Source: Actinomycetota bacterium | GTDB lineage: Bacteria > Actinomycetota > Actinomycetes > Mycobacteriales > Pseudonocardiaceae | Assembly (NCBI GenBank): GCA_021324675.1 | Contig: JAJPIR010000312.1 | Location: 1-61,555 of the forward strand | DNA: 61,555 bases | Direction of reading: 5' to 3' | Made by a program: the position numbers and the translations under genes | Notes under the pieces: generated by a model | Seen by the model: only the letters and a program-made list of their open reading frames with translations | Databases searched by the model: none | Told to the model about the DNA's origin: nothing | In this document: positions 33,722-54,777 of the stretch, one piece after another | Numbering within the stretch: position 1 is the first letter of the stretch | Layout of the letters: each line of letters opens with the position of its first letter

Positions 33722-34685
33722 GCGATGTGCTCCTAGATGGTGTGGTGGGTCTCCCACTGTGTGGGGCCCGGCCGGCCCTGGCAGCGCTGGCCAGAGTCCT
33801 GTTGACGCGGGCCCTCGTCCACCAACTTGTTCCTGCGGGCGTGCATCACACGAACACCGAAACTGAACGACCTCAATCGATACTACCCGTGTGCCATGTT
33901 GGCCTGTTTCCGCATGGGGCCGGGAGGCGGGACTCAGCGTATCAACGCCGCCGGGTCGGTGTTGAGCCGAGCCAGGCGATCGGATCCCATGGTAGGGAAG
34001 CCAGACAACGGCCCGGCAGGTCCGCCACCGGTGTCTCCGGAACGGCGGTGGCACCCCGTCCCCACGCGGGGCGACCAGCCTGAGTAACGGCGACCAGCCT
34101 GAGTAACACGGACTGCGGCGACGCCACACCGATCTCTCGGCCGACGTCCCTCTGCGGCGAATCGGAAGTGGTGGTTAACACCAGTCAGCGCAAGCCAACC
34201 TTGCCGCGAAGATGCATGACCCGTCGCCCAACCCAGCGTATCGAGCACATTCTCATTGCAGCCATTGACATCGGCGAGATTGACGGTCAGGTACCGGGCT
34301 CCGCTATCGAGGACCGCGCCAAGCTCAGCTAGGAGTCGCTACCCAGCGCGGTGATCGAGATGACCCCGCAGGATCACGCGGGCATACCCGGCACCACGCG
34401 GCACGGTGACACAGATACGCTAAAAACTGTTATGAGGGTACGCATTATCCAGGGCCGCAGACAGCCCATCGCGTGCCACGTGGTCTTTAAGTCAGTCTCT
34501 TTTCCCTGACGACGACGCGTGCAAGACCAAGTGTGCGGATGGGGCTGACTTGCCGGCTATCGACGGTTGTTTACGTCGAAGGGGAACTGCAGTGAGCCGC
34601 GCTGACCGGCAGCCCCACCCAATGACCCACACCACGAACGTTCCGCAAACTGGACTTCGCAGCAGAGTACTGTTGGTCCCGTCGC
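33722..34685. other. Long non-coding stretch upstream of csp
   Basis: 960 bp without a supportable gene. It holds a 19-bp tandem repeat (34070-34107). A plus-strand segment near 34225-34330 reads THPTQRIEHILIAAIDIGE and then stops, possibly a coding fragment. The part next to csp would contain its promoter and 5' leader. I see no tRNA or known RNA motif. Confidence 0.45.
34070..34107. repeat. 19-bp tandem direct repeat, two copies
   Basis: GGCGACCAGCCTGAGTAAC occurs twice head to tail with no mismatches. It lies in non-coding DNA of the island; no function is evident. Confidence 0.8.
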
Positions 34686-49762: not shown

Positions 49763-50084
49763 AGCGATATTCCCCTTCTATCCTATTTGGGCGAATGCTG
49801 GAAGCTCTGCCGGGGTCGTTCGTGTAAAGATCGCGCTATGGAATGGCCCCTGACCTGCACCCCCACCGGGTATCATGGCAACCCACCAGCTCAAGACACC
49901 AGGGACGGCCTTCTGGTACCCCGGGGGGCTACGGCGTGGCCTGACTTTCGCGCCTTCGGGGGTGGCACCTCACAAGTGATAACGACTTGGTAACCCGCTG
50001 AGGTAACCTGCGGATTACCGCAGATGGGTGCACGTCGTCCCGATGCGTGTATCGAGTGAGTAATCGAGACGACGGGAGGTGCTC
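49763..50084 (+). promoter_or_regulatory. gltB leader with hairpin abutting the Shine-Dalgarno
   Basis: The 320 bp between the TenA-like start and gltB has no gene. Near gltB a CTGCGG-ATTA-CCGCAG hairpin (50008-50023) is followed by a longer imperfect stem, CGTCGTC-C-CGAT pairing with ATCG-A-GACGACG (50033-50044 with 50063-50074). The 3' arm ends on the first base of the GGGAGG Shine-Dalgarno (50074-50079). The structure could modulate gltB translation. It matches no riboswitch family I could recognise. Confidence 0.4.
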
Positions 50085-53000
50085 GTGAGCGCTAACCACC
50101 TGCCAGAAGGGTCGAGCCCCCGCCAGCAAGGTCTTTATGACCGGGCCTATGACCATGATGCGTGCGGCGTTGCCTTCGTGGCCGACCTCGCCGGGCATCG
50201 CGATCACGCGATCGTGCGTAAGGCGCTGACTGCGCTGCGCAACCTGGAGCATCGGGGAGCCCGCGGCGGCGAACCCGATACCGGCGACGGCGCCGGAATC
50301 CTGCTCCAGGTGCCCGACGACTTTTTCCGGCACGTGGTCGACTTCGAGCTGCCCGCACCCGGCCAGTACGCCGTGGGGACAGCGTTTTTGCCCGGTGACA
50401 AACCCGGTAACAGCTCTGGTGACCAGGCTACAGAGGTGATGGCTGGTATCGAGGCCATCGCGACCCAAGAGGGCATGCGCGTGGTCGGCTGGCGCGACCT
50501 CCCGATCAACCCCGAGGGTGTAGGACCGACCGCCCTGTCGGCGATGCCCGGATTCCGCCAGCTGTTCCTCGCGGGTAACGGCAACCAGTCAGGGCTCGCC
50601 CTGGAACGGCTGGTGTACTGCGTGCGCAAGCGCGCCGAGCATGAGCTCGACGTCTACTTCCCGAGCCTGTCCGGGCGCACCATCGTCTACAAGGGAATGC
50701 TCACCGAGGAGCAGCTGGTGAGCTTCTATCCCGACCTGTCCGACGAGCGGGTCACCAGCTCGCTGGCGCTGGTGCACTCCCGGTTCTCCACCAACACCTT
50801 CCCCTCGTGGCCGCTGGCGCACCCGTACCGCTACGTGTCCCACAACGGTGAGATCAACACCCTGCGCGGCAACCGGAACTGGATGCGTGCCCGGGAAAGC
50901 AAGCTTGACACCGACCTCATCCCCGGCGATCTGAAACGGATTTATCCGATCGTCACCCCGGGGGCGAGCGACTCGGCGTCGTTCGACGAAGTGCTCGAGC
51001 TGTTGCACCTGGGCGGCCGCCCGCTGCCGCATGCCGTGCTGATGATGATCCCGGAGGCCTGGGAGAACCACACCGAGATGGATCCGGCCCGCCGGGCGTT
51101 CTACGAATTCCACTCCACGCTGATGGAGCCGTGGGACGGACCTGCGTTGATCGCGTTCACCGACGGCACTGTCATTGGCGCCGTGCTGGACCGCAACGGG
51201 CTGCGCCCGGCTCGCTACTGGGTCACCGAGGACGGCCTGGTCGTGCTGGCCAGCGAAGTTGGCGTGCTGGACATCGATCCCGCCACCGTGGTCCGCAAAG
51301 GACGGTTGGAACCGGGCCGGATGTTTCTCGCCGACACCGCAACCGGCCGGATCGTCAGCGACGACGAGCTCAAGGGTCAGCTCGCCGCCGAGCACCCCTA
51401 CGCCGACTGGGTCGCGCGGGGGCTGGTGCACCTGGAGGATCTGCCCGAGCGTGATCGCGAGGTGCCCAGCCACGACTCGCTGGTACGCCGCCAGCACAGC
51501 CTCGGCTACACACAGGAAGAGCTGGCGGTGCTGCTGACGCCGATGGCGCTCACCGGTGCCGAACCGATCGGCTCGATGGGCAACGACGCCCCGCTAGCCC
51601 CGTTCTCCGAGCAACCCCGGGCGCTGTACGACTACTTCACCCAACTGTTCGCACAGGTCACCAACCCGCCGCTGGATGCGATCCGGGAAGAGCTGGTGAC
51701 CTCGCTGCTGGCCCAGCTCGGCGCCCAACCCAACCTGCTGGTAGCCAACGAGGACTCCTGCCGGCGCATCGTGCTGCCCTTCCCGGTGCTGGACAACGAC
51801 GAGCTCGCCAAGATCATCCATATCAACGATGACGGTCAGTGGCCGGAGTACCAGTCGCACACGGTCAGGGGCCTGTATGACGTGCACGGGGGTGGCCAGG
51901 CACTGGTGGCGCGGATCAAGGAGATCTGCGTCGAGGTCAGCAAAGCGGTCACCGACGGCGCTCGGCTGATCGTGCTCTCCGCCCGGGGCGTGGACGCAGA
52001 TCATGCGTCGATCCCCTCACTGCTGCTCACCGGCGCGGTGCACCACCATCTGGTGCGCGAGAAGACCCGCACCCAGGTAGGGCTGGTCGTCGAAGCGGCA
52101 GACGCCCGCGAGGTGCACCACATCGCGCTGCTCATCGGCTACGGCGCTGCGGCCGTCAACCCGTACCTGGCGATGGCCACCGTGGAGGACCTCATCGATC
52201 GGGGCCTAGCTGGTATCGATGCCAAGACCGCTACCCGGAACCTGATCAAGGCGCTGGGCAAGGGTGTGCGCAAGACGATGTCGAAGATGGGCGTGTCCAC
52301 GGTGGCCTCCTACACCGGTGCGCAGATCTTCGAGGCGATCGGCCTGGGACCCGAGGTCATCGACTCCTGCTTCACCGGCACCACCTCCCGGCTCGGTGGG
52401 GTCGGGTTCGACGTCCTGGCTGAGGAGGCCGCACGCTGGCATCTCAAGGCGTTCCCGCGCGACGGGGTGCACGCCCCGCACCGGGAACTGCCGATCGGCG
52501 GTGACTACCAGTGGCGCCGCGAGGGCGAAGCGCACGTGTTCAACCCCCAGACGGTGTTCAAGCTGCAGCACTCCACGCGGGCTGGCCGCTACGAGATCTT
52601 CAAGGAGTACACCCGGCTGGTCGACGACCAGTCGCAGCGGTTGATGACCCTGCGCGGACTGTTCGCCTTCCGGGAAGGCGTGCGCCCGCCGGTCCCGCTG
52701 GACGAGGTCGAGCCAGTTGAATCGATCGTCAAGCGATTCGCCACCGGCGCCATCTCCTACGGGTCGATCTCCAAGGAGATGCACGAGGTGCTGGCCATCG
52801 CAATGAACCGGCTGGGCGGTAAGTCAAATACCGGGGAAGGCGGCGAGGACCCCGACCGCTACACCCCCGACCCGAATGGAGACTTCCGCCGCTCCGCGAT
52901 CAAACAGGTAGCTTCCGGCCGGTTCGGGGTGACCAGCGAATACCTTGTCAACGCCGACGACCTGCAGATCAAGATCTCGCAGGGGGCCAAGCCCGGCGAA

Positions 53001-54644
53001 GGTGGTCAGCTGCCTGGCACCAAGGTGTACCCGTGGATCGCCAAGACCCGGTACTCCACCCCGGGGGTGGGGCTGATCTCACCGCCGCCACACCACGACA
53101 TCTACTCCATCGAAGACATCAAGCAGCTCATCCACGACCTGAAAAACGCCAACCCGCAGGCTCGGGTGCACGTCAAGCTGGTCTCCGAGGTCGGGGTCGG
53201 CACGGTGGCCGCCGGGGTAGCCAAGGCGTACTCCGACGTCGTGCTGATCTCCGGGCACGACGGCGGTACCGGAGCCTCGCCACTGTCGTCGATCAAGCAT
53301 GCCGGCACGCCGTGGGAACTGGGCCTGGCCGAGACCCAGCAGACGCTGATCGCCAACAAGCTGCGGGACCGGATCGTCGTGCAGACCGATGGGCAGCTCA
53401 AGACCGGCCGCGACGTGATGATCGCCGCGTTGTTGGGTGCCGAGGAGTACGGCTTTGCCACGGCGCCCTTAGTGGTGTCCGGCTGCATCATGATGCGGGT
53501 CTGTCACCTGGATACCTGCCCGGTGGGAGTGGCCACCCAGAACCCGACGCTGCGGGCAAAGTTCACCGGCAAGGCCGAATACGTCGTCAACTTCTTCGAG
53601 TTCATCGCGCAGGAAGTCCGCGAATACCTGGCCGAGCTCGGGTTTCGCACCCTGGATGAGGCCATTGGACGTACCGAAATGCTGGATATGCGCCCGGCGA
53701 TCGACCACTGGAAAGCTGCCGGGTTGGACCTGTCGCCAATCCTGCACGTGCCCGAACATGGCCCGGATACCCCCCGGCACCGGATCAGGGAACAGGACCA
53801 CGGGCTAGACAAAGCGCTCGACAACACCCTCATCGCGCTGGCTGAGGGGGCGCTGGCCGATGGCTCACCGGTGCACCTGGACCTGCCGGTGCGCAACGTC
53901 AACCGCACGGTGGGGACCATGCTCGGCTACGAGCTGACCCGGCGGTGGGGCGGGAAAGGATTACCCGACAACACCATCGACATCACCCTGACCGGTTCGG
54001 CCGGCCAGTCGTTCGGGGCTTTCCTTCCTCGCGGGATCACCTTGCGCCTGATCGGCGATGCTAACGACTACGTCGGCAAGGGCCTGTCCGGCGGGCGGAT
54101 CACCGTCCGCCCGCACGCCGAGGCCCAGTTCGTCGCGGAGCACAACATCATCGCCGGCAACGTGATCCTCTACGGCGCGACCGGCGGCGAGCTGTTCCTG
54201 CGCGGGATCGTCGGGGAACGATTCTGCGTACGTAACTCCGGCGCGCTGGCCGTCGTCGAAGGCGTCGGCGATCACGGTTGCGAGTACATGACCGGCGGCC
54301 GGGTGGTGGTGCTCGGAGCAACCGGACGCAATTTCGCGGCCGGGATGTCCGGTGGCACCGCCTACGTGCTCGATCTGGTGGTCGGCCGGGTCAACCAGGA
54401 GATGGTCGACCTCGACCCGCTGACCGACGAGGACCGGGCATTCCTGGCCGACGTGGTGGCACGGCACCATGCCGAGACCGGATCCGCCGTAGCGCACGCG
54501 CTGCTTACCGACTGGGACACCGCGGTAGACCGGTTCAGCAAGGTCATGCCCAAGGACTTCAAGCGGGTGCTGGCCGCCCAGGCGGCGGCGCAGCGCGACG
54601 GCCGGGACGTCAACGAAGCCATCATGGAGGCCGCCCATGGCTAG
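50085..54644 (+). CDS. gltB: Glutamate synthase large subunit
   Basis: 1,519 residues from GTG 50085, chosen because GGGAGG is 5 nt upstream (a GTG at 50079 overlaps it). A 26-residue propeptide precedes the catalytic Cys27 in DACGVAF, the glutaminase nucleophile. Central and FMN-binding domains follow, with the 3Fe-4S cysteines in [16 protein letters not shown], and a C-terminal GXGXG beta-helix domain. It makes glutamate from glutamine and 2-oxoglutarate with GltD. The stop codon overlaps the ATG of the mini-ORF (ATGGCTAG). Confidence 0.97.
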
Positions 54645-54777
54645 ACCGACCATCAGCACGGAGGCCGCCATGGCCAGGCCGACCATCAGCACGGAGGCCG
54701 CCATGGCCAGGCCGACCATCAGCACGGAGGCCGCCATGGCCAGGCCGACCATCAGCACGGAGGCCGCCCATGGCTGA
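54626..54777 (+). repeat. 33-bp tandem repeat carrying Shine-Dalgarno and ATG
   Basis: One 34-bp unit (54626-54659), three identical 33-bp units (54660, 54693, 54726) and a partial fifth (54759) that forms the gltD start. Each unit opens with GGAGGCCGCC(C)ATGGC, a ribosome-binding site 5-6 nt before an ATG. The units differ only in an extra C and in CTAGA/CCAGG at the first copy. Confidence 0.97.
54637..54777 (+). CDS. Repeat-encoded 46-residue mini-ORF between gltB and gltD
   Basis: Frame starting at the ATG inside the gltB stop region and ending at a TGA inside the gltD start. The predicted product is four copies of [11 protein letters not shown] followed by His-Gly. Every copy has its own GGAGG at the right distance, so ribosomes could start at any of the four ATGs. 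Both ends overlap the neighbours: ATGGCTAG with gltB and ATGGCTGA with gltD. The gltB C-terminus itself ends MEAAHG, so the unit seems to derive from the gltB-gltD junction. Whether the peptide is made or matters, or only its translation, is unknown. Confidence 0.55.

Follow-up and report, generated by a model that had tools for sequence, protein, structure and literature searches.

A tandem mini-ORF between gltB and gltD in a Pseudonocardiaceae genome as a probable coupling-preserving insert

GltB and GltD are the large and small subunits of glutamate synthase, and in a 61,555-nt stretch of DNA from a member of the Pseudonocardiaceae (contig JAJPIR010000312.1 of assembly GCA_021324675.1; hereafter, the window) the two genes are joined by a short tandem repeat that is itself an open reading frame (ORF). 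This locus raises the question of what a repetitive mini-ORF does at such an operon junction, and how it came to be there. By comparing the junction across the genus, family and order, we found that inserts recur at this site and that those examined keep a stop/start overlap with both genes. We consider it probable that the window carries a coupled mini-ORF insert, similar to the mycobacterial interspersed repetitive units (MIRUs), which was later expanded in frame and which preserves the coupling of gltB to gltD.

Tandem Repeats Finder placed a 33-bp array at 54626-54774 (score 266), and a unit search allowing up to three mismatches recovered four 33-bp units (54637-54768), the last three of them identical, compared with none in 100 shuffles of the window. 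At the same threshold, the 5.63-Mb draft genome held no further site for this unit. These results bear out a preliminary description of the locus, which had reported four near-identical units, each with a GGAGG and an ATG, whose ATGs share one frame running over the gltB stop at one end and the gltD start at the other. All four ATGs indeed lie in a single 46-codon ORF, in the plus orientation of gltB and gltD, and this ORF overlaps each neighbor by 8 nt. The sequence ahead of the gltD ATG reads CCGCCC, whereas inside the array it reads CCGCC; because of the extra C at 54769, the last register is 34 nt, gltD falls in a different frame, and the mini-ORF stops inside gltD. GltB matched the Pfam families GATase_2, Glu_syn_central, Glu_synthase and GXGXG, and GltD matched 15 families including Fer4_20 and Pyr_redox_2, while the mini-ORF had no match in Pfam. 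The array and mini-ORF are thereby confirmed as real and non-random, and they are laid out like a translated bridge.

Related genomes differ in the number of units that they carry. We refer to genomes by G-numbers (G000 being that of the window) and to genera by g-numbers (g11 being the genus that contains Amycolatopsis). A junction query matched 9 of the 11 genomes of the window's genus (G009 and G010 were unmatched). Among these, G000 carries four units and G004 a single 34-nt unit (MARPTINTEAAHG); G001, G002, G003, G005, G006, G007 and G008 have none, the gltB stop directly overlapping the gltD start. The comparison among relatives that the preliminary description had proposed thus yielded unit numbers of 0, 1 and 4, varying between species. 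In the family as a whole, GltD was found in 382 of 390 genomes, and we assembled 121 junctions in three sets. The best GltD hits supplied 30, a further 80 were retrieved from that hit list (leaving out places already sampled), and 11 were chosen because they match the pattern ACGGAGGCNGCNCATGGCTGA, which occurs in 16 of the 390 genomes and in 4 of 46 genera. A direct gltB-gltD overlap was found at 96 of the 121 junctions (spacing -8 in 93 by script, and by eye in three that the script did not parse), so that an 8-nt overlap, typically GGAGGCNGCNCATGGCTGA, is the commonest state in the family. The remaining 25 junctions carried inserts of 34-266 nt. As 11 of these 25 were pattern-chosen, the share among the other junctions is 14 of 110, a figure that may be slightly low because of the places left out and that represents best GltD hits, not a random draw. 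At the level of the order, a junction pattern matched 5 of 397 genomes, all in the window's family, and none of 318 genomes from other families, although the pattern is tied to this family's letters and missed the insert-bearing genomes G000, G263 and G331. Two hits among named records, in Nocardioides terrae and a deltaproteobacterial metagenome-assembled genome, were rejected as gltB junctions, since the surrounding translations do not, to our reading, resemble gltB. The Nocardioides terrae match (L103) has ACGGAGGCNGCNCATGGCTGAYCC at a different stop/start overlap, with flanking frames unlike gltB and gltD.

Each of the 25 inserts is spanned by one ORF or a chain of ORFs that begins in the gltB overlap and stops precisely 8 nt into gltD. 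Two additional genomes from the order-level search (G255 and G258) have the same layout, with a mini-ORF ending at +8 in gltD. That the overlaps are kept at both ends in 25 plus 2 inserts suggests that translation through the insert matters. For 11 representatives that we chose, the chance of an open bridge under random phase was 0.14-0.31 each, giving a product of about 10^-7 if independence is assumed, or roughly 10^-4 for about six independent events. This open chain is built in more than one way. Some junctions form relays of separate ORFs (three units with a 73-nt period in G158, two in G105, and two in G316), and others carry fused units, with a period of 33 nt in G000 and 72 nt in G331 and G341 (three units each, the last one longer in G341). 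The internal units of G000 and G331 lack one base relative to the last register, which leaves all their ATGs in a single frame. Related inserts that differ in length likewise stay in phase (73 versus 100 nt, in G102 and G106). A 73-nt insert is also seen in Amycolatopsis oliviviridis and Amycolatopsis rubida. Two g11 genomes, G095 and G105 (L053 and L060), bridge gltB and gltD with a different 175-nt, 60-codon insert; G105 also has another copy of it that, at 91 nt, is internally shorter.

The inserts also repeat the junction that they occupy. A module running from the Shine-Dalgarno (SD) sequence to the overlap is present at both insert ends, and the exact block repeated around the ATG measures 17-22 nt in 12 of the 25 inserts. 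In the remaining 13 it measures 7-12 nt; nine of these are 73- or 100-nt inserts of g11 with the identical two differing bases. Third bases agreed between the ends at 16 of 22 positions in 11 representatives that we chose (shuffle mean 8.6, p 0.0004); four g33 genomes did not fit the pattern used for this test, and G316 contributed the end of its last unit only. In the four g33 genomes, a lineage-specific gltB end (EVANG) is repeated as well. These end repeats fit duplication of the local junction at insertion followed by drift, or gene conversion. The earlier suggestion that the unit looks like a duplicated gltB-gltD junction holds in that the unit ends copy the junction; a plain 34-bp tandem duplication of the junction accounts for these two ends and not for the unit middle.

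A quick tree built from 118 gltB C-termini, in which gain is indistinguishable from loss, requires the insert state to change at least 16 times, with at least 6 of the changes forced by starred branches. Shuffled labels required 23.1 changes on average, and none of 500 shuffles was as low as the observed number, so the insert state is also clustered on the tree. Near neighbors differing in insert state include G256/G257, G342/G343, G338/G330 and G291/G265.

These observations can be accommodated by a simple sequence of events. In the bare state, a ribosome finishing gltB could restart on gltD by way of the 8-nt overlap. In the window's lineage, a 34-nt insert would have entered this overlap, leaving an SD-to-start module at both ends and so creating a 13-codon ORF whose SD and start lie within the end of gltB and which overlaps gltD just as gltB does in bare relatives. 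Ribosomes arriving from gltB would reinitiate on the mini-ORF, terminate 8 nt into gltD and then start again on gltD itself. In G000, the unit would then have been amplified, presumably by slippage, to four copies with a 33-nt period, fused into one frame. Because they are fused, the extra copies would add no termination-reinitiation (TeRe) step, only possible internal starts. In one study, reinitiation fell steeply with distance and was all but lost at an intergenic distance of 20 nt, and short overlaps were overrepresented among the subunits of heteromeric complexes (PMC10666635). Given this steep dependence, coupling should be weakened or broken by a 34-266-nt insert that carries no ORF. 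We conclude that the bridge is most likely an insert of the mobile-repeat type, tolerated because translation of gltB and gltD stays linked; its retention would reflect the kept coupling rather than an added function.

Could the number of units instead tune GltD, either because more SD and ATG pairs in the same frame load more ribosomes or because separate units attenuate serially? Every unit has a GGAGG 5-6 nt ahead of its ATG, and besides the 0, 1 and 4 units of the window's genus, there are two or three units in G158, G105, G316, G331 and G341. However, fused chains (G000, G331 and G341) occur alongside separate ones (G158, G105 and G316), which argues against a conserved arithmetic of ribosome steps; 96 of 121 junctions have no unit at all, and the differences, seen from sequence, lie between species only. 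We consider such tuning unlikely. Equally doubtful is a broader proposal in which coupling-preserving inserts of the Pseudonocardiaceae repeatedly enter stop/start overlaps by SD-to-start duplication and the in-frame unit number of some lineages serves as a heritable dial for the GltB:GltD ratio.

A locus-specific minisatellite with no role, untranslated or irrelevant and in frame by chance, would explain why the unit is confined to the gltB-gltD junction in its own genome and why units 2-4 show the identity expected of a recent duplication. This reading seems improbable to us, as all 25 inserts and both of the additional ones are open with the two overlaps, an outcome with a small chance of arising at random.

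The preliminary description had also raised the possibility that the peptide itself acts. Such a peptide could be, for instance, a small protein for assembly or regulation of glutamate synthase. In its favor, 13-codon versions are alike in three genera (MARPTINTEAAHG, MARPTLETEAAHG and MAEPTINTEAAHG), and a related peptide recurs within g11. Other inserts, however, encode unrelated peptides. A core like CCGACCGGGTGCGGGTGTCCCGCAAG is found in several inserts of g11, g27, g28, g33 and g34, and it reads DRVRVSRKV or DRVRVPRKTQ in g33 but CRPGAGVPQ or RRPGAGVPQ in g11 and g28. Since related DNA is read in different frames across genera, the peptide does not appear to be what is kept. Moreover, the ratio of nonsynonymous to synonymous differences (pN/pS) was 0.82 over codons 3-20 of nine 73-nt mini-ORFs of g11, compared with 0.21 in 81 upstream codons of the adjacent gltB, in small sets with non-independent pairwise counts. 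On this frame use and pN/pS, with no sign of peptide conservation and with 96 of 121 junctions having no insert, we judged a functional peptide very unlikely. The 33-34-nt unit of the window has no core of this kind and resembles the 13-codon bridges in G388 and G316. Of these two genomes, G316 agrees in position with Pseudonocardia sp. OFTM335, and G388 agrees in junction sequence with a Pseudonocardiaceae metagenome-assembled genome.

An assembly artefact is scarcely credible: although the draft has 364 contigs and the copy number of tandem repeats is prone to misassembly, unit 1 of the 132-bp array differs from the others, G004 has a one-unit form, and the single-contig genomes G158 and G331 carry tandem forms.

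Several points weigh against a coupling-preserving insert. A review reports coupling out to about +40 nt, although 3- to 10-fold weaker (PMC12548453), and the shortest inserts might therefore not lose it through distance alone. An 8-nt overlap is described as less efficient than shorter ones (PMC10666635), so two such steps could lower GltD. Because many insert-bearing genomes are closely related, the 25 inserts represent fewer events than that; the tree has weak support at 55 of its 113 inner branches, and on it gains look the same as losses. Neither third base is common to the two ends in most of the 73-nt inserts of g11 and in G316. In the other two frames of the mini-ORFs, pN/pS was 0.39 and 0.84, making the estimate noisy. 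The RNA of this stretch folds only slightly more stably than its composition would lead one to expect (z -1.82; 10 of 200 shuffles were equally stable), and no strong RNA structure was found. Finally, the window's unit, coreless and at a single locus of its own genome, may be a plain local duplication.

In one genome elsewhere in the family, a related core is a dispersed repeat. This g11 genome, G126, holds 50 exact copies of the 18-nt core piece GTGCGGGTNTCCCGCAAG, with none for the sequence written backwards, and at least one exact copy was found in 21 of 68 genomes. When all 50 copies in G126 were read, 38 had one head, 4 had another and 8 had others. The shared head mostly comes with the palindrome gggggcatgc...gcatgccccc (G126:C1, L222-L261), and some of these copies are tandem. 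Two tandem 24-nt copies with the same palindrome lie inside a long open frame in G000 (L102, C143:28676-28725), and G002 has three palindrome-bearing copies at 24-nt steps. Four sites in G126 have coupled bridges flanked on each side by a long open frame: the gltB-gltD insert, L096, L098 and L099. At L096 (G126:C1:6071219-6071290), another gltB-gltD-like pair, starting with GTG, carries a coupled insert with 8-nt overlaps. L098 and L099 have 4-nt overlaps, L099 being without an exact GTGCGGGTNTCCCGCAAG; L097 overlaps its upstream frame by 4 nt and is followed downstream by just a 5-codon ORF. Exact end repeats measured 20 nt at L096, 15 nt at L097 and 18 nt at L098.

The features of the junction are collected in Table 1. 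Beyond it, three minus-strand candidates at two places came up when the window was searched for further bridging mini-ORFs. The window also contains a perfect 19-bp tandem duplication, GGCGACCAGCCTGAGTAAC, at 34070-34107.

Table 1. Features of the gltB-gltD junction in the window.
Feature	Coordinates	Strand	Basis
gltB, large subunit of glutamate synthase (stop TAG, 54642-54644)	50079..54644	+	longest ORF; Pfam
SD GGAGG inside gltB, 6 nt ahead of the first mini-ORF ATG	54626..54630	+	sequence
8-nt overlap ATGGCTAG, mini-ORF start / gltB stop	54637..54644	+	sequence, ORF list
Mini-ORF, 46 aa / 46 codons, 11-residue unit x4 followed by HG	54637..54777	+	ORF list
Unit 1, two differences from units 2-4	54637..54669	+	unit search
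Unit 2	54670..54702	+	unit search
Unit 3	54703..54735	+	unit search
Unit 4, with an extra C after it (54769)	54736..54768	+	sequence, unit search
Internal GGAGG, 5 nt ahead of ATG 54670	54660..54664	+	sequence
Further internal GGAGGs, each 5 nt ahead of an ATG	54693-54697, 54726-54730	+	sequence
GGAGG 6 nt ahead of the gltD ATG	54759..54763	+	sequence
8-nt overlap ATGGCTGA, gltD start / mini-ORF stop	54770..54777	+	sequence, ORF list
gltD, small subunit of glutamate synthase, 483 aa	54770..56221	+	protein query from the 54770 start; Pfam

The closest known system is the MIRU of mycobacteria, which works in a similar way. MIRUs lie in the same orientation as their operon, and the mini-ORF does likewise (+, between + genes). 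According to a 2025 review, these repeats seem to be mobile and insert at start codons, with an ORF coupled to the gene at -4 nt, which likely limits their effect on expression (PMC12548453); in view of that description, the idea of such a translational relay is not wholly new. Their copy number varies, and most are said to be intergenic (PMC3635867). The window shares with them a small ORF coupled to its neighbor by a stop/start overlap and tandem copies of varying number (0, 1 and 4 between species of its genus). It differs in that the window and family inserts are coupled at -8 nt, although 4-nt coupling is seen at two of the three other bridged sites of G126. MIRUs are interspersed at many loci, whereas the 33-34-bp unit occupies one locus of its genome, and the family inserts recur at gltB-gltD and repeat an SD-to-start module, exact over 17-22 nt in 12 of 25. 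As the window's unit is not interspersed, and MIRUs were compared by description only, we do not claim membership in that class.

Other systems share single features with the junction. TeRe-coupled gene pairs have a short stop/start overlap, as here, and are enriched for subunits of one complex (PMC10666635), but they couple two genes directly, whereas here one or more interposed mini-ORFs keep the chain. The upstream ORF before iraD (PMC5574718) is similar in that translation of a short ORF feeds the next gene; the present ORF differs in lying between two structural genes, in being repetitive, and in having been recurrently acquired. REPINs (PMC3116915) are dispersed miniature repeats, and the insert core with its 50 exact 18-nt copies in G126 resembles them in this, but few of the G126 copies are coupled mini-ORFs and the window's unit is without that core. 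The open-access literature matches listed included no paper on such inserts in Pseudonocardiaceae or at gltB-gltD. Novel here is that coupling-preserving inserts recur at a single operon junction, and do so in a family other than the mycobacteria.

At the gltB-gltD junction, related bare, single, fused-tandem and separate-tandem bridges between two subunits of one enzyme form a natural series. This series makes it possible to test a reinitiation relay through several short ORFs, and to test kept coupling as what lets small repeats survive inside operons. Together, these findings point to a MIRU-like class of inserts in a non-mycobacterial family.
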